DNA of 64,000 nt, taken from Pseudomonadota bacterium. GTDB lineage: Bacteria; Pseudomonadota; Gammaproteobacteria; Eutrophobiales; Eutrophobiaceae. Below the pieces are notes generated by a model. The model was given only the letters and a program-made list of their open reading frames with translations. It was not told where the DNA came from and did not search any database. Shown here piece by piece: positions 3-8,381 of this stretch. The DNA is taken from contig JABFGI010000001.1 of assembly GCA_013112535.1 (NCBI GenBank), positions 242,414-306,413 on the forward strand. Direction: 5' to 3'. The position numbers were made by a program, and so were the translations under genes. Position 1 is the stretch's first letter. Each line of letters begins with the position of its first letter.

Positions 3-743
3 CAAGATTTATTTGAAAAAAAGATAATCCTTCATCATCCACATCTGGCAGAATATTTACAATCGCATATTGCTGATTTTCCGAATACCAAGTTGATATA
101 TATGGTTAGAGATCCAAGAGCAAACATTGTCTCAGGTTATGAAAACTTTGGTAAGTACTATCCAGATAAGTCAGGTGCTGCATTGCTTAATGCATATCTG
201 ACTTCAATTTTATATGAGGATATAAGCATAGTTACGGGAACTCAACTTGAGTATCGAATATTAAGAGTTGAAGACTTAGATCAAAAAGAGGTCTATTTGA
301 AACTTTGTGATTGGATGGGGATAAATTATTGTGAAACTATGACATCTTCAACATGGGCTGGATTACTGTGGCATGGAGATAGATTGACCAGAAATAAAGT
401 AGATGGACTTTCAAGAGATGTATTAAAGAATAATTGGCAAAATAAGCTCAGCAACAGTGATAAATATATCATTTCTCATCTAACAAAAAACATGAGGCAG
501 TATTACAAGTATGAAGAAGAGGATATAAAAACAAGTAAGTTCAAAGCTTTTTTCATTATTATTAAGCCCCTATCATATGAAATTGATAATATTTTTAGAA
601 ATATAAATAGTGCTGCTAAAAGTAATAAAACAATGAGACGATTATACAATTTTTATTTTTACTTCGTCAGAGTTCGCTTATTTTATAAATTATTATTTAG
701 TCCGGTCACTTTTGATAATAAGGATTATGTATTAAGAAAATAA
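3..743 (+). CDS. Sulfotransferase-family protein, 5' end outside the window
   Basis: The frame is open from base 3, so the start lies upstream of the window; 246 residues of the C-terminal part are visible. Sulfotransferases move sulfate from PAPS to a hydroxyl. The visible hallmark is RDPRANIVSGYENF, the 3'-phosphate-binding segment (Arg-Asp-Pro-Arg then Ser) that contacts the 3'-phosphonucleotide. The P-loop-like 5'-phosphosulfate segment should be in the missing N-terminus. The gene is followed 163 bases later by a CysC-like kinase fusion, so a 3'-phosphonucleotide donor could be made nearby. Sulfate may not be the real transferred group (see findings). The family call is fairly safe; the acceptor is unknown. 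Confidence 0.75.
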   Translation, partial: QDLFEKKIILHHPHLAEYLQSHIADFPNTKLIYMVRDPRANIVSGYENFGKYYPDKSGAALLNAYLTSILYEDISIVTGTQLEYRILRVEDLDQKEVYLKLCDWMGINYCETMTSSTWAGLLWHGDRLTRNKVDGLSRDVLKNNWQNKLSNSDKYIISHLTKNMRQYYKYEEEDIKTSKFKAFFIIIKPLSYEIDNIFRNINSAAKSNKTMRRLYNFYFYFVRVRLFYKLLFSPVTFDNKDYVLRK

Positions 744-782
744 TTAACTGGATTCAACTTACTAGTAAAATCGATGCGTTTA

Positions 783-859
783 CACCGAAAAATAATTGGT
801 TCGGTGATTTAATGCCAAAAGATTAATTCTATCGTAGCTTGTATATGCTTCCGAACCAA
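783..859 (+). other. Competing inverted repeats between the first two genes
   Basis: CACCGAA (783-789) can pair with TTCGGTG (800-806). An overlapping segment, TTGGTTCGG (796-804), can instead pair with CCGAACCAA (851-859). The two helices exclude each other. Only a weak A/T run follows the first hairpin, so it is not a convincing terminator. This may be chance in AT-rich DNA. Confidence 0.25.
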
Positions 860-906
860 TGAGTTGTACTTTCAAATTAAATTCACCTTAAGTTAATGGC
901 TATATT

Positions 907-2061
907 ATGACTAATAATAATTTAAATAATGGACTTATTTGGATAACAGGGTTTTCTGCATCAGGAAAAACGACTGTTTCTAGAAAAGTTAGAAGTGCTC
1001 TTCATGACAAAGGACTTAAAACAATATTTTTAGATGGCGATGATTTAAGAGCGATTTTTGGAAATAATTGGGGTTTTGATAAAGGTAGTCGAGTTGAATT
1101 AGCACATGTTTATTTTAGACTTTGTAGTCATCTATCTACACAAGGCTTTGTTGTTATAATATCCGCAGTAGCAATGTTTGACTCACTGGGGGATTGGATT
1201 AGTGAGAATGTCCCCAATTCGATGCAAGTTTATTTAAAGGTTCCAAAGAAAGTGAGGTTGGATAGAGATGCACAGACAAAAAAAATATTTCTCAACTCAA
1301 AGTTAAACGATGATGATTATGATGTTCCAAAATATGCTGATCTAACAATCAGCAATCATGGTCATGTCACTCCTGATGAAGCTGCTAATAAGATTGTATG
1401 CACTTTTTTAGAAAAAACCAAACATAAACTAGATCGAGGTCGTGGTCCTCACTGGAATTCTTATTATGAAAGTAATATTGCTCCTATAATTCCCTCCTCT
1501 TTTGCTAAGTCAGTTGCATCACAATTACTGAAAAATCAAGAAATATTAGAAATTGGATGTGGTAATGGTAGAGATGCAGCCTTTTTCGCTTCAAGTGGTT
1601 TTAATGTTACTGCAATAGATAGATCTGAATCAGCAATTAAATATTGTCGAGAAAAATATAGTAATCATTCAGTGTGTTTTTATGAAGGCATGATAACAGA
1701 TTCTTCTCCTCATATTACAAATGTGAAATACGACATAATTTATTCAAGATTTGTTATTCATGCTATGCCATTAGAAGAAGAAATTGAAGTCCTCTCTGCA
1801 GCAAATAATTTACTAAAAACTGGAGGGCGTTTATATATTGAATGTAGATCCATTAATGACCCTCTCGCGAGGCGAGGAGAAATCATAAGCATAACTGAAA
1901 GAATTGATGGGCATTATAGACGCTTTATAATCCTTGATGAATTTAGAGAAAGATTAATAAACACAGGGTTTAAAATAATTGAGGAAGTGGAAGCAAATGG
2001 TCTTGCAGTATATAAAGATGAAGATCCTGTCGTAATTAGAGTGACTGCTGGAAAAATGTAA
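907..2061 (+). CDS. CysC-like nucleotide kinase fused to a class I methyltransferase
   Basis: This is a two-domain protein of 384 residues. Residues about 9-175 are an adenylylsulfate-kinase-like P-loop kinase with Walker A GFSASGKTT (15-23) and the DGDDLR motif (43-48). Residues about 185-384 are a SAM-dependent methyltransferase with motif I LEIGCGNGRD near residue 215. True CysC enzymes carry an ISPFR-type segment after the central strand. Here the equivalent reads IISAVAMFDSLGDW, resembling the CysC homologues of Campylobacter capsule loci, where Cj1415 phosphorylates the ribose 3'-OH of cytidine diphosphoramidate. The likely substrate is therefore a nucleotide-activated group, either APS or a CDP-linked phosphoramidate, and the fused methyltransferase may methylate that group or the sugar. 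The exact substrate cannot be read from sequence. Confidence 0.75.
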   Translation: MTNNNLNNGLIWITGFSASGKTTVSRKVRSALHDKGLKTIFLDGDDLRAIFGNNWGFDKGSRVELAHVYFRLCSHLSTQGFVVIISAVAMFDSLGDWISENVPNSMQVYLKVPKKVRLDRDAQTKKIFLNSKLNDDDYDVPKYADLTISNHGHVTPDEAANKIVCTFLEKTKHKLDRGRGPHWNSYYESNIAPIIPSSFAKSVASQLLKNQEILEIGCGNGRDAAFFASSGFNVTAIDRSESAIKYCREKYSNHSVCFYEGMITDSSPHITNVKYDIIYSRFVIHAMPLEEEIEVLSAANNLLKTGGRLYIECRSINDPLARRGEIISITERIDGHYRRFIILDEFRERLINTGFKIIEEVEANGLAVYKDEDPVVIRVTAGKM

Positions 2062-2211
2062 ATTTTTGTTAAACTATTTAATTCATTTTAATATTATAAG
2101 TAAGTTAATTTTTAATAAAGTTTCAAATTTATCCGAAAGTACATTCTCTGAATTATGTTTAAATCATTTGTTTTTTAATATGTACTACAAATAGCTATAT
2201 GAATTAGAAGA

Positions 2212-3993
2212 ATGAAACGTTTTTTAATAACTACTGCAGATGAAAGGACCTGGAAGTTTGATAGACCGGTAATTTTTCTTGGTGAATGGTGTTGTCGACA
2301 TAATCGGAAACACATATGGCAAGCTATGGATGGGATTGTGGCTAAGCCTTATGGTATAGAATCAAAAGAAAAATTAGAATGTTTTGATGAATTGAAAGTA
2401 GTGACAGCAGATATTTTGCTTGAGCTCACTGCCGCGTTGAATAATATTCACGGTACTAATCATACTGAAAGATATTGGAATTTACTTCTTGGTCACTGGC
2501 TCCAACGTTATATTAAAATTATTATTAATCGTTATTATACTTTAGTTCAGGCTATCGAGAATTATGAAATAAGAGATACCATCTGCATAAAAGCAGAAGA
2601 ATATAGTCTGATTAGGAATGATATGTTAGATTTTAGTAAGGCTATTAGCAGTGATTTATGGAATCATATGACATATTCTTACATTCTTAATCATTTTGAT
2701 GGGTTATGCATAGAAATACATCATATAAAGTTGGAAGACGATAATTACAAAAGGTCTTTTCCCCCGGATTTATCAACTCCATCCAATTCTTTAATGAAGG
2801 GATTCATAGAGAAATTTTCAAAAGCAATATTATCAAAATTAAGAAAAGATACAGACGCACTTATAGTCAATAGCTATTTACCTAAAAAAGAAGAAATAAA
2901 ACTGCATCTTAGCTTAGGGCAGGTTCCTCAATTAACTAATAAAAATACTTTTTTACCGGCTGTTGTAGACAGAGAAATTAGAGGAAAGTTAAATTTTAAT
3001 ACTAATAGATATAGCGGACTTAATTACCACATTCGCAACCTGATACCAGAAATGTTACCTACTTGCTACCTTGAAGGTAGAAAAAAGCTGATCGAAAATG
3101 TCAATAATATTGATTGGCCAAGTGAACCAAAATTTATATTTACCTCAAATAATTTTGCAGCAGATGAAGTGTTTAAATTATGGACAGCCACTAAAGTAGA
3201 GGAAGGTACTCCTTACTTCGTTGGACAACATGGAGCTAATTATGGAACGATGTATGGATGTGAGATTTGGCCTGAGTTAACAACCTGTGATAGGTTTTTA
3301 TCTTGGGGGTGGGATAATTCTTTTTATGCTAATTTTAAAAATATTATTCCAGCATTTAATTTTAAGGTGGCTGGTTTTAAAAAAAAATGTTTTGATAAAA
3401 GTGGCAGCCTTATTTTAATAGAGAGAGGACCAGGTAGTCGAGATGGTCCACAAGATCGCCACTATGAACATATTCTTTTACAAAAAGATGTGTTTAGTTT
3501 TTTTGATGAGTTGGTTGAAATCGCTAAAGATAAAACAATTGTTAGATTGCATCATGGATCAAAATATCACGGTGCCTCAGATGAAGTTATTTGGAAGGAG
3601 CATAGCCCAAGGACTCAGCTTGATCTTGGGGATAGAGATATTTGGGATTTGATTAAAGAAAGTCGTATTGTTGTATACACTTACGATTCTGCAGGTATTC
3701 TGGAAAATATGGCCCTTAATATACCAACTATTTGTTTTTGGCGAGGAGGATTGGAGCACCTTCTTCCTGGCGCAAAACCATATTATGAATTGCTTCGTAG
3801 TGTTGATATTTTGGCAGACACACCAAAAGCTGCTGCGAAACACATATCTAATTACTGGCACGATATTGGATCCTGGTGGGATAGAGATGATGTGCAAGAA
3901 GCTCGTAAGATATTTTGCGAAAGATATTCTGTTCATTCCACCAGACCTATTAGAACGCTTAAGTCACTGTTACTTGATGCAGCATTAAATTAA
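2212..3993 (+). CDS. LIC12162-family putative transferase
   Basis: A 593-residue soluble protein that begins MKRFLITTADERTW and has GEWCC nearby, typical of the LIC12162 family of putative transferases found in O-antigen loci. The C-terminal half, with FVGQHGANYG near residue 340, LHHGSKYHG near 447 and TYDSAGILENMALNIPTICF near 485-505, looks like a nucleotide-sugar-binding GT-B fold of the CDP-glycerol or polysaccharide-transferase kind. No signal peptide or membrane segment is visible. It stands alone, with about 150 bases upstream and 104 downstream. I infer that it transfers a sugar or phospho-group to the glycan; the donor is unknown. The family assignment is from memory of its hallmark N-terminus. 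Confidence 0.65.
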   Translation: MKRFLITTADERTWKFDRPVIFLGEWCCRHNRKHIWQAMDGIVAKPYGIESKEKLECFDELKVVTADILLELTAALNNIHGTNHTERYWNLLLGHWLQRYIKIIINRYYTLVQAIENYEIRDTICIKAEEYSLIRNDMLDFSKAISSDLWNHMTYSYILNHFDGLCIEIHHIKLEDDNYKRSFPPDLSTPSNSLMKGFIEKFSKAILSKLRKDTDALIVNSYLPKKEEIKLHLSLGQVPQLTNKNTFLPAVVDREIRGKLNFNTNRYSGLNYHIRNLIPEMLPTCYLEGRKKLIENVNNIDWPSEPKFIFTSNNFAADEVFKLWTATKVEEGTPYFVGQHGANYGTMYGCEIWPELTTCDRFLSWGWDNSFYANFKNIIPAFNFKVAGFKKKCFDKSGSLILIERGPGSRDGPQDRHYEHILLQKDVFSFFDELVEIAKDKTIVRLHHGSKYHGASDEVIWKEHSPRTQLDLGDRDIWDLIKESRIVVYTYDSAGILENMALNIPTICFWRGGLEHLLPGAKPYYELLRSVDILADTPKAAAKHISNYWHDIGSWWDRDDVQEARKIFCERYSVHSTRPIRTLKSLLLDAALN

Positions 3994-4097
3994 CGGTAGA
4001 AAAATAAATTTGCTATTACTCAGCGAAATATATTCCGTGATTTATGTATACTATATCTACAAAACTATGAAAATATTTTTATGGACTATGATAATTA

Positions 4098-5513
4098 ATG
4101 ATCATTGATGGAAAAAGAGTTCTTAAAGGAGACATGTTTGATATTGTTAATCCTTACAACGGTGATATTGTTGGCAAGGCTGTAGATGCAAGCAATTCAG
4201 ATATTCAGGGAGCGCTCGAAAAATCATATGATTATCAGTGTGAATTATCTGCCACGGAACGCGCAAATATTCTTCTTAAAACTGCAAACTATTTTGAAAA
4301 ACATATACTTGAATTAGCGAAGCTCATTACCCTTGAGACTGGACTATGCTTAAAAGACACGAAATATGAAATAGGTCGTGTTGTCAATTGTGCTCGCTAT
4401 AGTGCTAAAGTTTGTCACTTAGTCGAGAGAGACACTACTGCGAACTATCTATTAGACGAAGAAAACAAACCAAAACTTAATGTTATAAATGAGCCTATGG
4501 ATTTGATTGTGGGTATTACTCCCTTTAATCATCCTATGAATCAAGTTGCACATAAGGTGTTTCCTTCCATTGCATCAGGTGCATCTATGGTTTTGAAACC
4601 ATCAGAGAAAACACCACTTTCAGCGATCAAATTAGTTGAAATATTAATTGAGCATGGTTTGCCAGACAATATGGTTAATGTCATTACAGGAAAAGATGCA
4701 AACCTGACGGTAAAAAATATATTGTTATTTTCTGATATGGACATGCTTACATTTACTGGTGGTTTATCTGCGGGACTAATAATTCAAAAGGAGATGATTA
4801 AGCATGGTCATGCATTGAAGCGTTATGTTCCCGAGTTGGGAGGGTGTTCATCATTAATTATTTGCTCAGATGCAGATCTTGATCTTGCTGTTAAAATCAT
4901 CATGAATGGTTGTTTTAAAAATTCAGGACAACGTTGCACATCAATTCGTCGCGTCATTATCGAACAAAAAGTAGCCGAAGAATTTATAGATAAATTGATG
5001 ACTCAGGTGGCATCAATTTCATATGGCAATCCAAACGATGAACAAACAGATATGGGAACAGTTATCAATGAAGAATCAGCAAAAAAAATTGAAAACCGAA
5101 TTAACTTAGCAATTACAAAAGGTGCAAAATTATTATATGGTGGTAAACGACAGGGTGCATTGTTAAGTCCTACAGTTTTAGACCATGTTGACGTATCCAT
5201 GGAGTTGGTCGCTATGGAAACGTTTGGCCCAGTGTGTCCTATTATTCGTGCAACTGATTACTCTGAGGCTCTTTTGTTTGCTAAACAAACCAATTACAGA
5301 CTTGCTGGTGCAATTATAACAGCCGATAAAAATAAGGCGATGACTGCATCTAAGGAATTAAAAGTTGGCCAATTCAGTATTAACGGTCCACCCAGTTATA
5401 GAACTGAGGCCGCACCTTTTGGAGGATTTGGTGATTCCGGAAATGGAGAAAAAGAGGGAGTAATTCTTGCTGCCCATGGTATGCGTCGTATTAGAACAAC
5501 ATACGAGCATTAA
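4098..5513 (+). CDS. Aldehyde dehydrogenase, phosphonoacetaldehyde-dehydrogenase-like
   Basis: A 471-residue NAD(P)-dependent aldehyde dehydrogenase. The general base is Glu246 in ELGG and the catalytic nucleophile is Cys280 in GQRCT, with the usual 34-residue spacing. The nucleotide-binding region TPFNHPMNQVAHKV and MVLKPSEKTPLSA is close to what I recall of PhnY-type phosphonoacetaldehyde dehydrogenases, which make phosphonoacetate. Other aldehyde dehydrogenases share parts of these motifs. An aldehyde dehydrogenase is unusual in a glycan locus. Its nearest partner, 49 bases downstream, is a LicC/PntC-like cytidylyltransferase, and together they could make and activate a small phosphorus-containing acid. 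The family is certain; the substrate is inferred. Confidence 0.8.
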   Translation: MIIDGKRVLKGDMFDIVNPYNGDIVGKAVDASNSDIQGALEKSYDYQCELSATERANILLKTANYFEKHILELAKLITLETGLCLKDTKYEIGRVVNCARYSAKVCHLVERDTTANYLLDEENKPKLNVINEPMDLIVGITPFNHPMNQVAHKVFPSIASGASMVLKPSEKTPLSAIKLVEILIEHGLPDNMVNVITGKDANLTVKNILLFSDMDMLTFTGGLSAGLIIQKEMIKHGHALKRYVPELGGCSSLIICSDADLDLAVKIIMNGCFKNSGQRCTSIRRVIIEQKVAEEFIDKLMTQVASISYGNPNDEQTDMGTVINEESAKKIENRINLAITKGAKLLYGGKRQGALLSPTVLDHVDVSMELVAMETFGPVCPIIRATDYSEALLFAKQTNYRLAGAIITADKNKAMTASKELKVGQFSINGPPSYRTEAAPFGGFGDSGNGEKEGVILAAHGMRRIRTTYEH

Positions 5514-5562
5514 TTAATGATCTTTTCGTTTAAATGATCATAACGCACACAACGTTTTATAT

Positions 5563-6252
5563 ATGAAAGCAATAATATTAGCAGCAGGAAAAGGAAGTCG
5601 TCTTTATCCTATAACACTTAATAAGCCTAAAGGGCTGTTAAAGATTGGTAATGAGAGCATCTTAGACCGTCTCGTTCGTCAATTTAAGGCCGTAGGTATT
5701 AATGATGTTTTATTGGTCGTAGGTTATCAAAAGGAATGTTTGATAAAACACTTTGGCAAATCTGTTCGATATAGTGAGTATAAGAATTTTGCCAATACAA
5801 ACAATCTGCATACGCTATGGTCTGTCAAGGAAGAGTTAAATGATGATGTCGTAATCACATTTGCAGATCTTATTGTGCATCAGTCGATTATTGATGACTT
5901 GGTTGAGTCACGAAATGATATAACTATGGTAGTGGATACATCTCAGGTTCTGGAAGGTACTATGAGAGTGGCGGTCAATGATACCGGTATAACAAGTATT
6001 ACAACCACCACAGTTGATGAAGCAAGTGGTAATTTCATCGGTATTTCAAAGTTTAGTAAAGCAGGATGCGAACTTCTTATTGATGAAATGTCATCAATGA
6101 TTGATGGACATCATAATGATTATTATACCATAGCCGTTGATCAGTTAGCGCGTAAAGGCACTCTTGTAGGTTATTGCAATGCCAGTGAACATATTTGGCG
6201 TGAGATAGATACAAAAGATGAATATGATGAAGCTAAAGATATTTATGGTTAG
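5563..6252 (+). CDS. LicC/PntC-like nucleotidyltransferase
   Basis: A 229-residue nucleotidyltransferase with the N-terminal signature LAAGKGSRLYPITLNKPKG (residues about 6-24). The downstream pattern NTNNLHTLWSVKEEL then VVITFADLIV is typical of cytidylyltransferases acting on small phosphorylated groups: phosphocholine (LicC), aminoethylphosphonate (PntC) or phosphoglutamine (Cj1416 of Campylobacter). Sugar-1-phosphate enzymes usually lack the NTNN motif. It would supply a CDP-activated substituent. It lies between the aldehyde dehydrogenase and the second sulfotransferase-like gene, within a putative tailoring module. The nucleotide and the substrate are inferred. Confidence 0.7.
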   Translation: MKAIILAAGKGSRLYPITLNKPKGLLKIGNESILDRLVRQFKAVGINDVLLVVGYQKECLIKHFGKSVRYSEYKNFANTNNLHTLWSVKEELNDDVVITFADLIVHQSIIDDLVESRNDITMVVDTSQVLEGTMRVAVNDTGITSITTTTVDEASGNFIGISKFSKAGCELLIDEMSSMIDGHHNDYYTIAVDQLARKGTLVGYCNASEHIWREIDTKDEYDEAKDIYG

Positions 6253-6287
6253 TTTGAATAAATTATTTATTAAGGTAATTAGATTAG

Positions 6288-7250
6288 ATGGTTGATGTAG
6301 CGTTATCTAAAGATAATATTGCTGTCAATCTCGTGTTTATATCAGGGTTAACCAGATCTGGAAAAGCACTATTATGTCCTATAGTCTCCAGCTTTTCTAA
6401 TGTAGAAAAAGTCAATGTAAATTTCTTCTTAGAGCAAATTCCTTTTTTAAATTATTTGAATAGCATTCCAGATGAGACGGCTATTTATTTGTTGAGGACT
6501 GGAATGAACATGATGGTTTATGATAATGCTATTGGTCGTAACGCTAATTTCAGACCCGATGATTATACAAGCATCTGGAAATATAGAAATCCAATGGAAT
6601 ATATCCAGCGATTATTTCAACCAGATGGGGATCGTGTAATAAGACAACTAGATAGCAAAAAGAAAATCATTCCAATGATGATCCATAATGGGTTATGGCA
6701 TGCAGAAATATGGTTTCAGGCTTTTCCTTTGCTAAAACTTATTCATATGCAACGCGATCCTGCTGAAATTGTTTATTCATGGATGGGTAAAGAATATGAT
6801 GAAAAATTTTTTTCTAATATTCGGTCAAGCACTCCAACCTATTTTTATGATGGGAAGTTGTATCCCTATTTTGCTTCTGGGTGGGAGGAACAATATCGTG
6901 AATGTCATGGGATTGATCGAATTATACATATGATATATAGAATAAGAAAATACCATCAAGAGAATTATGAAAAATTAGATAGCAATTATAAACAACGTGT
7001 TTTATTTGTTCGACATAAGAGTTTACTTACGGAAACAGAGAAGAATTTATCTATAATTACAGAATTTCTTGGTGTAAATCCCACAGATGATACTGCAGAC
7101 ATTCTCGCACAGGAAAACTGCCCACGTGATATTTCAGTTGAAGAGAGACGAACTAAAATTAAAGCAATAAAAGAAAAAGCTTCTATCGAGACATTTGAAT
7201 TACTGATGGATATGGTCGACCAATTTGAATCAACAGATCTGGCAATATAA
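6288..7250 (+). CDS. Sulfotransferase-like protein
   Basis: A 320-residue protein with both sulfotransferase anchor motifs. The N-terminal P-loop-like segment is FISGLTRSGKALL (about residues 17-29), and the 3'-phosphate-binding segment is MQRDPAEIVYSW (about 161-172). The 36-base gap upstream and 33-base gap downstream suggest the same transcript as its neighbours. The family uses 3'-phosphonucleotide donors such as PAPS. Because the only candidate donor-making kinase here is the CysC-like fusion at 907-2061, this enzyme may use whatever that kinase makes. It is distinct in sequence from the sulfotransferase at 3-743, so two different acceptor sites are plausible. Confidence 0.7.
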   Translation: MVDVALSKDNIAVNLVFISGLTRSGKALLCPIVSSFSNVEKVNVNFFLEQIPFLNYLNSIPDETAIYLLRTGMNMMVYDNAIGRNANFRPDDYTSIWKYRNPMEYIQRLFQPDGDRVIRQLDSKKKIIPMMIHNGLWHAEIWFQAFPLLKLIHMQRDPAEIVYSWMGKEYDEKFFSNIRSSTPTYFYDGKLYPYFASGWEEQYRECHGIDRIIHMIYRIRKYHQENYEKLDSNYKQRVLFVRHKSLLTETEKNLSIITEFLGVNPTDDTADILAQENCPRDISVEERRTKIKAIKEKASIETFELLMDMVDQFESTDLAI

Positions 7251-7283
7251 AAATCTATAGTTGTCTTTTAAGCATATATAAAA

Positions 7284-8381
7284 ATGGCTGTAAAAGTTGT
7301 GTTCCGAGTCGATGCTTCAATGCAAATTGGTACAGGGCACGTTATACGCTGTCTTACGCTTGCTGAAGGACTGCGTGATCATGGGGCAGTATGCAGCTTC
7401 ATTTGTCGTGAACATCAAGGACATTTGTTGGATCGTATTAAGGAAAAAAGTTTTGATGTTGTAACTCTATTGGATAATGAAGAGGGCTTTCTAACGGACT
7501 CAAGCGATTTAATGTCTTTACCTGCACATGCAAGTTGGTTGGGTTGTGGTTGGCAAACAGATGCGGAACAAACAATATCCGTTCTCAATAATGTTCAGCC
7601 AGATTGGCTTGTAGTTGATCATTATGCACTAGATGCTCGCTGGGAAAATGTAATAAAGCCGTATTGCAAAAGGTTAATGGTTGTTGATGATATAGCTGAT
7701 CGAATACATGAATGCGATTTACTACTTGACCAGAATTTGGTCTATGAGATGGAATCCCGTTATCAAGATAAGGTCCCTAATACATGCACCTTACTTCTGG
7801 GACTTGATTATGCCTTACTACAACCGGTCTACGCTAAGATGCATGACTGTGTTCAAATTAAAAATGAATCAGTACAACGCATCCTTATTTATTTTGGTGG
7901 TGCTGATCAGAATAAGCTGACAGAACGGACTATATCTGCTTTCATGCAGCTTAATCGTCCAGATATTGAAGTTGATGTTGTGATTTCCTCAAAAAGTCAT
8001 CAAGCAGGACTTATAGAAGAGCAGATCTTAAATAAAGATAATATACATCTGCATAGTGATCTTCCAACCTTGGCATCTTTAATGTCTAAAGCAGATCTTG
8101 CCATTGGTGCGGGTGGTTCCACAAACTGGGAGAGACTATGTCTTGGGTTACCTGCGTTAGTCGTATCGATTTCAGAAAACCAACGACAAGTAACAAAGTT
8201 CCTAAATGATCAGGGACTTATTAAATTGATGGGACATGCTGATGAAATTGATAATCAGAGAATTAAGGTCGAATTAGAACAAATTTTGGCTATGCCAAAT
8301 TTATTTGATTGGTCAAAGTGTTGTCTGGATGCGTGTAATGGCAAAGGATTATTAAAAGTTGTCGAAATACTGATGTCCTAA
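7284..8381 (+). CDS. pseG: PseG-like UDP-sugar hydrolase of pseudaminic acid synthesis
   Basis: A 365-residue GT-B-fold hydrolase. PseG removes UDP from UDP-2,4-diacetamido-2,4,6-trideoxy-L-altrose before condensation with phosphoenolpyruvate. The N-terminus FRVDASMQIGTGHVIRCLTL carries the GxGHxxR motif with the catalytic-type His19. Near residue 273, IGAGGSTNWERLCLGLPAL is the typical C-terminal nucleotide-binding segment. It is longer than the roughly 275-residue Campylobacter enzyme but within the range of annotated PseG proteins. A PseI-like synthase lies downstream at 11792. PseB, PseC, PseH and PseF are not in the window and would be expected upstream. Confidence 0.8.
   Translation: MAVKVVFRVDASMQIGTGHVIRCLTLAEGLRDHGAVCSFICREHQGHLLDRIKEKSFDVVTLLDNEEGFLTDSSDLMSLPAHASWLGCGWQTDAEQTISVLNNVQPDWLVVDHYALDARWENVIKPYCKRLMVVDDIADRIHECDLLLDQNLVYEMESRYQDKVPNTCTLLLGLDYALLQPVYAKMHDCVQIKNESVQRILIYFGGADQNKLTERTISAFMQLNRPDIEVDVVISSKSHQAGLIEEQILNKDNIHLHSDLPTLASLMSKADLAIGAGGSTNWERLCLGLPALVVSISENQRQVTKFLNDQGLIKLMGHADEIDNQRIKVELEQILAMPNLFDWSKCCLDACNGKGLLKVVEILMS

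Follow-up and report, generated by a model that had tools for sequence, protein, structure and literature searches.

The 64,000-nucleotide stretch analysed here (the window) comes from a Pseudomonadota bacterium of the family Eutrophobiaceae (assembly GCA_013112535.1, contig JABFGI010000001.1, forward-strand positions 242,414 to 306,413), whose genome comprises 3.05 Mb on 20 contigs and is 99% complete. The window starts inside a surface-glycan locus, and its first genes form a run in which a fusion of a CysC-like kinase with a methyltransferase is accompanied by two sulfotransferase-fold proteins (ST1 and ST2), a LIC12162-family protein, an aldehyde dehydrogenase and a nucleotidyltransferase. 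Our tentative reading, to which we give somewhat less than an even chance, is that the run is a glycan-tailoring module that hangs a methylated phosphorus group, probably a phosphonate, on surface sugars by means of the sulfotransferase-fold enzymes. The genes are as follows:

3..743, + strand: ST1, sulfotransferase-fold protein, 3' part; Sulfotransfer_1 25.2 bits against a cut-off of 22 for the in-window part only; motif RDPRANIVS
907..1416, + strand: fusion, CysC-like kinase half, roughly residues 1-170; APS_kinase 68 bits (residues 10-124)
1504..2061, + strand: fusion, S-adenosylmethionine (SAM)-dependent methyltransferase half, roughly residues 200-384; Methyltransf_23/25, class I, about residues 200-370
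2212..3993, + strand: LIC12162-family protein, predicted GT-B glycosyltransferase; TIGR04331 353.5 bits, above the cut-off of 225
4098..5513, + strand: aldehyde dehydrogenase nearest phosphonoacetaldehyde dehydrogenase; TIGR03250 452 bits, below the cut-off of 635.65
5563..6252, + strand: nucleotidyltransferase, predicted to be CTP-dependent, LicC/PntC-like; PDB 1jyk 63.5 bits, 6pd1 54.6 bits
6288..7250, + strand: ST2, sulfotransferase-fold protein; Sulfotransfer_1 32.5 bits (cut-off 22); motifs GLTRSGK and RDPAEIVYS
7284..8381, + strand: PseG, the gene after ST2; TIGR03590 305 bits against a cut-off of 153.55

From ST1 to PseG, all genes lie on one strand in the order listed, the intergenic gaps along the run measure 163, 150, 104, 49, 35 and 33 bp, and no forward terminator-like site was found in 600-7400. 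An earlier sequence-only reading of this DNA had named the genes of the run, and every one of them was recovered in place and on the same strand. What it called a second sulfotransferase, upstream of the others, is indeed sulfotransferase-like, but the segment is only the 3' part of a 394-residue gene (L009:18573-19757) that starts about 440 bp before the window. The fusion gene spans 907-2061, with the kinase half N-terminal, and the model of the LIC12162 protein (predicted local distance difference test score, pLDDT, 84.6) has GT-B-type structural matches. PseG sets the module inside a nonulosonic-acid glycan locus. On the 5' side of the run lie two UDP-sugar dehydrogenases, CysC1, pseudaminic- and legionaminic-type acid genes, CysC2 (another CysC-like gene) and a gene resembling asparagine synthetase, these names having been given by eye unless scored; CysC1 is a true adenosine 5'-phosphosulfate (APS) kinase.

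Is the kinase half of the fusion an APS kinase as well? Against the apsK model (TIGR00455), it scored 76.1 bits, short of the cut-off of 138.7, whereas CysC1 of the same genome scored 256.3. The best model for the kinase half was PRK05541 (NF004041), at 109.4 bits, and we chose this model as a proxy for kinases of the type of Cj1415 from Campylobacter jejuni. Seven kinases in the 369 Gammaproteobacteria searched exceeded the PRK05541 cut-off. The four strongest, from genomes G355, G371, G348 and G142 (137-184 bits), sit in what we call glutamine-kinase cassettes; the weaker hits in G104, G234 and G379 were set aside as ordinary APS kinases, with CysC1 as their best match (228-250 bits).

In a 47-row tree, to which Cj1415 itself did not belong, a branch with 100/100 support separated 17 fusions, three split kinases and five cassette kinases from 21 APS kinases plus CysC2, and it was unchanged after the removal of eight long rows. 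With groups picked after the tree was seen, the approximately unbiased (AU) test rejected trees that nest the fusions among 16 cellular APS kinases (p=0.0043) or among five of these (p=0.00013). These comparisons, of the kind that the sequence-only reading had proposed as a check, place the fusion kinases outside the APS kinases and group them with the kinases of the glutamine-kinase cassettes. The APS-kinase signatures ENIRR, FISPF and FTGID are lost in fusions and cassette kinases alike, and the fusions further lack about eight residues of the lid. A deletion before the APS-kinase "FIEV" strand was considered as a shared mark and dropped, as CysC2 has the same deletion.

The cassettes provide the closest comparison for the run. 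The kinases of G355, G371 and G142 adjoin a protein resembling pyruvate phosphate dikinase (PPDK), that of G348 is fused to one, and in all four genomes a Peptidase_C26-like protein and a cytidylyltransferase adjoin. Pfam was run on the G142 cassette only, where it gave PPDK_N with the phosphoenolpyruvate-utilisers mobile domain, Peptidase_C26, NTP_transf_3 and APS_kinase; the others were recognised by BLAST to the G142 set. By analogy, and matched on the activities that we take Cj1415-Cj1418 to have, this composition is that of Campylobacter Cj1416-Cj1418 together with Cj1415. PMC3907429 gives cj1415-1418 as the biosynthesis genes. Fourteen plasmid records had a glutamine-kinase match, and nine of them were examined, H14, H16, H17, H23 and H25 having been left out as near-duplicates by name and position.

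A sulfotransferase-fold gene occurs in four of the eight cassettes that carry a CysC kinase (G142, G355, G371 and an Azospirillum pair counted once), with the ST2 subfamily in G142 and the ST1 subfamily in G355 and G371. Five glutamine-kinase-like loci lacked a CysC kinase within the DNA fetched around them, and neither BLAST nor annotation showed a sulfotransferase in any of these, L187 being unannotated. The Azospirillum pair, A. lipoferum and A. ramasamyi (L186:4632-7172 and L190:4633-7149), encodes a protein of about 840 residues with a sulfotransferase-like N-terminus and a C-terminal CysC kinase. Compared pairwise by hhalign, this N-terminus matched Sulfotransfer_2-like proteins with 85% probability (E 6e-6); its Pfam match was sub-threshold in one protein and absent in the other, and the first had no PDB match. 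A tetratricopeptide-repeat protein of Azospirillum TSA2s was dropped as a further candidate sulfotransferase, since it held a mere motif-like string with no Pfam support.

Both ST1 and ST2 keep the 3'-phosphate motif and, with their Sulfotransfer_1 (PF00685) scores, qualify as members of the sulfotransferase superfamily. An AlphaFold2 model of ST2 (pLDDT 93.4) gave 47 PDB matches in Foldseek at E<=0.001, all of them sulfotransferases, many bound to 3'-phosphoadenosine 5'-phosphate (PAP), or retinol dehydratase, a related enzyme that binds PAP; the TM-scores were low, at 0.31-0.50 of the query. For ST2, 86 relatives were listed, one of them a short partial match, and in the 369 genomes only two others were found at 1e-20, of which the G142 copy (118 bits) is the last gene of its glutamine-kinase cassette. 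When ST1 was compared by BLAST with 13 sulfotransferase-like proteins, the best matches, all of its own subfamily, were the neighbour of the L023 fusion (104 bits) and the cassette proteins of G371 (97.8) and G355 (62), the remainder scoring at most 26 bits. No relative of ST2 was found on viral contigs, and neither ST2 nor the G142 sulfotransferase had a match on plasmids at the limits set.

Could enzymes of this fold take phosphorus, rather than sulfur, from a nucleotide donor? Sulfotransferases need a 3'-phosphorylated nucleotide, and the ordinary ones release 3'-phospho-AMP. Cj1415 presumably phosphorylates the 3' position of CDP-phosphoramidate, and the same may be expected of the cassette kinases; the economical reading is that enzymes of the ST1/ST2 type would take phosphorus from a 3'-phospho donor. 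The occurrence in cassettes of both window ST subfamilies, together with the Azospirillum kinase fusions, supports the use of a 3'-phosphonucleotide phosphorus donor by the sulfotransferase fold. This pairing was the core of the sequence-only reading, and it has thus gained comparative support, with sulfation staying a serious rival.

We found the fusion itself to be widespread. A protein search returned 979 family members at E<=1e-10, and the best 120, less the window's own (119), are 370-428 residues long with 50-65% identity over 97-100% of the query; several of the best 120 carry source names such as adenylyl-sulfate kinase or CysN/CysC. Since the fusion is absent at 1e-40 from 57 related genomes, it was probably acquired horizontally. 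On plasmids it had no match at the limits set, and in 29 loci of viral contigs the kinase part alone was matched.

In a scan of species genomes, 80 loci were kept of 95 fusion relatives. Both domains occur in one protein in L012-L020, L022 and L023, representing ten genomes (L013 and L014 are from one; in L020 the two lie in adjoining frames), and a split kinase and methyltransferase are neighbours in L021, L034 and L039, in both gene orders. That the two activities form one functional pair is thus very probable, given a family in which they are fused and other genomes in which their genes are neighbours in either order. The motif DGDxLR is invariant in 24 aligned fusions. A sulfotransferase-like gene adjoins the fusion in six of the ten other fused-copy genomes, with a 4-bp overlap in four of the six; the proteins of L015 and L023 exceed the Pfam cut-off, that of L013 falls just under it, and those of L012, L017 and L020 are sub-threshold and form one family. 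In place of such a gene, the fusion has a CDP-alcohol transferase beside it in L016 and a gene of sulfatase fold in L019; L018's neighbours were left unclassified, and the flank of L022 was limited by its contig.

The same 80 loci were compared, all open reading frames (ORFs) against reference proteins at E 1e-6 and three best matches per ORF. The full run was in none of them, nor did ST2, LIC12162, the glutamine kinase or the hydrolase appear in any among those three best matches. Matches to the aldehyde dehydrogenase reached 84-165 bits at 23-29% identity, which is weak, and the loci that hold them also match the methyltransferase weakly (46-55 bits); the window nucleotidyltransferase had a single match of 42 bits. 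The sequence-only reading had regarded the combination as new; the run as a whole was not found elsewhere, and the fusion is not peculiar to this genome. Gene order as proof of one pathway was dropped, as the fusion stands elsewhere without the other genes. We also rejected orthology of the fusion methyltransferase with those of the cassettes, the methyltransferases of L171 and L172 having no match to it at 1e-5.

Where would the phosphorus come from? A PepM on contig C9 scored 397.9 bits against a cut-off of 319.55 and is fused to a nucleotidyltransferase domain, with Ppd and PhnW-like ORFs beside it (named by eye). PepM/Ppd and CysD/CysN, which the sequence-only reading had proposed to look for, are thus present, on contigs other than that of the run (C9 and C7, respectively). 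The counterpart of Cj1418, glutamine kinase, was not found in the genome by a search with the cassette profile, and the sole PPDK_N protein reads by eye as pyruvate phosphate dikinase; for these two reasons, glutamine is an unlikely source of phosphorus in this genome. As to the gamma-glutamyl-CDP-amidate hydrolase, inspection by eye only, with no genome profile search, showed a HisH-like protein (L009:5577-6218) as the sole class I amidotransferase among the window and flank ORFs.

The aldehyde dehydrogenase points to a phosphonate. Among 45 models, TIGR03250 was its best, though below the cut-off, and its best PDB match was 4i3t (306 bits, the next being 250), which we take to be PhnY of Sinorhizobium. 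The protein keeps the three Arg residues and the FNHP His of 4i3t, presumably the anion/substrate site of phosphonoacetaldehyde dehydrogenase, whereas each of the next three PDB matches lacks at least the His. The nucleotidyltransferase was matched best by PDB 1jyk, a CTP:phosphocholine cytidylyltransferase, 6pd1 being presumably PntC. Its nearest relatives are the PepM-fused domain of C9 (91.7 bits) and one cassette enzyme (88 bits), and it lacks the W..W..RFxDPLxDAE-like motif common to the cassette enzymes. No close relative was found at 1e-30 in the 397 other genomes of the phylum sample, and its 11 plasmid records all have less than 60% identity; of these, the Vibrio alfacsensis plasmid pYa108 was the one examined, on account of its glutamine kinase. 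With phosphonoacetaldehyde dehydrogenase as the nearest family of the aldehyde dehydrogenase, a phosphonate is our best guess for the transferred group, and a guess it is.

Gene order, families, motifs, tree position, the ST subfamilies in cassettes and the genome inventory are all given by the sequences themselves; every substrate and every reaction of the following scheme is what we infer from them. Phosphonoacetaldehyde would come from PepM and Ppd on contig C9; after its oxidation by the aldehyde dehydrogenase, the resulting phosphonate would be activated with CTP by the nucleotidyltransferase. Acting on this cytidine-linked phosphorus compound, the two halves of the fusion would add a phosphate to its ribose 3'-OH (kinase) and a methyl group (methyltransferase). 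ST1 or ST2 would then move the phosphorus group to a sugar hydroxyl, releasing 3'-phospho-CMP. The glycan itself would have LIC12162 among its glycosyltransferases. A bolder and clearly unlikely form of this scheme would make the run a carbon-phosphorus counterpart of the Campylobacter tag, with methylated 3'-phospho-CMP-phosphonoacetate as the donor for sulfotransferase-fold transfer onto nonulosonic-acid glycans; in many bacteria the fold would then have shifted from moving sulfuryl groups to transfer of the phosphoryl type.

Several findings weigh against a methylated phosphorus group transferred by sulfotransferase-fold enzymes. The kinase half misses the PRK05541 cut-off of 127, and the AU test does not reject one clade of the fusions plus all APS kinases (p=0.088, 0.286), so that nesting of the fusions inside the cassette kinases is not established. 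Four of the eight CysC-bearing cassettes (G348, G403, Smac51 and TSA2s) have no sulfotransferase gene that could be established; G142 came to light through its ST2 homologue and is therefore not an unbiased case, although the kinase search found it again; and L187 and L188, in which BLAST showed neither the hydrolase nor a cytidylyltransferase, may be something other than glutamine-kinase cassettes. The fusion's methyltransferase is of another family than those of the cassettes, the aldehyde dehydrogenase and nucleotidyltransferase were not seen beside the fusion in other genomes, and PepM is outside the run's locus. Among 14 genomes, PepM exceeds its cut-off only in the present one (G000), G402 coming nearest with 280.7 of 319.55, and the glutamine kinase occurs only in G403; for the 13 other genomes (10 with the fusion, three with an adjacent split pair), the counts are 0/13 and 1/13, respectively. 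The G403 glutamine kinase is read in two frames; its cassette has a kinase of its own and lies some 17 kb away from one of the two fusion copies. The kinase-methyltransferase pair is therefore not generally dependent on either enzyme, and the donor on which the fusion works may be a simpler one, for instance a nucleotide diphosphate that carries a methyl group.

The chief rival is plain sulfation, which we judge somewhat unlikely. Here, ST1 and ST2 would use 3'-phosphoadenosine 5'-phosphosulfate (PAPS), the fusion would be an APS kinase that has diverged, or else an accessory, and the rest would be unrelated glycan enzymes. The genome holds a full PAPS route, with CysD and CysN on C7 and the bona fide APS kinase CysC1 where this glycan locus begins, so both proteins could be ordinary sulfotransferases; they share with PAPS enzymes the fold and the 3'-phosphate and 5'-loop motifs, PAP-bound structures are among the ST2 fold matches, and the fusion often adjoins sulfotransferase-like genes. 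The clade of fusions and all APS kinases, which the AU test does not reject, suits this explanation too. On the other hand, the adjacent kinase departs from APS kinases in its scores, motifs and tree position, relatives of both sulfotransferases sit in glutamine-kinase cassettes, and the fused methyltransferase would be left without a reason. Canonical O-methyl phosphoramidate synthesis of the Campylobacter type (Cj1415-Cj1418, Cj1421, Cj1422) resembles the run in having a CysC-type kinase that falls outside the APS kinases, a cytidylyltransferase fold and a methyltransferase, all in a surface-glycan locus, in a comparison that did not include the Cj sequences. The run differs in the kinase-methyltransferase fusion, the aldehyde dehydrogenase and the two sulfotransferase-fold proteins, and the canonical pathway finds no support because no glutamine kinase was found in this nearly complete genome and the nucleotidyltransferase lacks the cassette motif; we regard it as largely refuted and extremely improbable. 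Of the three groups named by the sequence-only reading, O-methyl phosphoramidate thus largely falls away, leaving phosphonate and sulfate.

Two further explanations keep the sulfotransferases, or some of them, apart from the fusion. In Escherichia coli O9a, WbdD carries a methyltransferase, placed first, and a kinase on one polypeptide in glycan synthesis. By the same logic, the kinase here might phosphorylate a sugar of the glycan and the methyltransferase methylate that phosphate, giving an O-methyl phosphate cap, which would require neither glutamine kinase nor PepM; relatives of the methyltransferase moreover adjoin LicD genes in L024, L027 and L039. We find this quite improbable, as the kinase comes first in the fusion, DGDxLR is invariant in the aligned fusions and a sulfotransferase-like neighbour recurs in six of ten other genomes. 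PMC3482155 describes WbdD as a bifunctional kinase-methyltransferase with a eukaryotic-type kinase domain that acts directly on the glycan, in contrast to the APS_kinase family found here. Highly doubtful as well is a pair of separate devices, in which the fusion and ST1 would make one decoration (e.g., methyl phosphate from a 3'-phospho-NDP-methyl donor) and the aldehyde dehydrogenase, nucleotidyltransferase and ST2 another. The different subfamilies of ST1 and ST2, the fusion and sulfotransferase-like gene standing without the other genes in the fetched flanks of six other genomes, and the isolation of the nucleotidyltransferase in the phylum sample would fit such a division. The uninterrupted same-strand run with no terminator-like site speaks for one device, as does the fact that elsewhere LIC12162 appears to share contigs with the fusion (4633 bases) and with ST2 (76911 and 38199).

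The phosphonate version of our reading also has its own points of comparison. It is in the PhnY and PepM/Ppd/PntC pathways that the aldehyde dehydrogenase has its best family and PDB match, the genome holds PepM and Ppd, and a nucleotidyltransferase domain related to that of the run is fused to PepM; the differences are the sub-cut-off family score and the separate contig of the PepM locus. PhnY is known from catabolism. Phosphorus in the methylated group is hinted at, too, by the LicD-family genes beside relatives of the fusion methyltransferase.

We know of no explanation for the phosphorylation of the 3'-OH of the CDP donor in the Campylobacter capsule pathway. If sulfotransferase-fold enzymes accept such donors, this step gains a reason and the transferase family gains a function. 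Many genes of glycan loci named "adenylyl-sulfate kinase" or "sulfotransferase" would then be misnamed and may mark phosphorus-bearing surface sugars. In the literature searched, no title or abstract joined sulfotransferases to phosphoramidate or phosphonate glycan transfer; most subscription papers were beyond reach, so novelty is not proven.

Some further observations concern the cassettes and the host genome. Cassettes of glutamine kinase, Peptidase_C26-like protein and cytidylyltransferase occur far outside Campylobacter, in Gammaproteobacteria and a Burkholderiales metagenome-assembled genome (L109, L170, L171, L172 and L179), and on plasmids of Azospirillum, Vibrio, Agrobacterium and a roseobacter (L182-L186, L189 and L190). 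They run counter to a 2022 review, which terms the glutamine kinase C. jejuni-specific (PMC9561416). The glutamine kinase is fused to a CysC kinase at L172:7564-10500 and to an N-terminal nucleotidyltransferase-like domain at L183:7266-10364. After the kinase, a formyltransferase-like gene lies at L109:10537-11874 (Pfam below cut-off) and L179:7152-8341, which suggests a formylated variant of the decoration. On the Vibrio alfacsensis plasmid pYa108 (L184:4535-6940), cysN and cysD directly adjoin the glutamine-kinase cassette.

In the host genome, the C9 locus (L092:4944-9610) is a compact 2-aminoethylphosphonate-type locus consisting of the PhnW-like gene, Ppd, the PepM-nucleotidyltransferase fusion and a second LicC-like nucleotidyltransferase, with a radical SAM gene nearby that is HpnH-like by eye. 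In the glycan locus, a NeuB-like synthase fused to a cytidylyltransferase-like domain (L009:13928-15712) is followed by CysC2 (L009:15740-16288), which is very divergent, with a branch of 4.65 in the 47-row tree and DGE replacing DGD.

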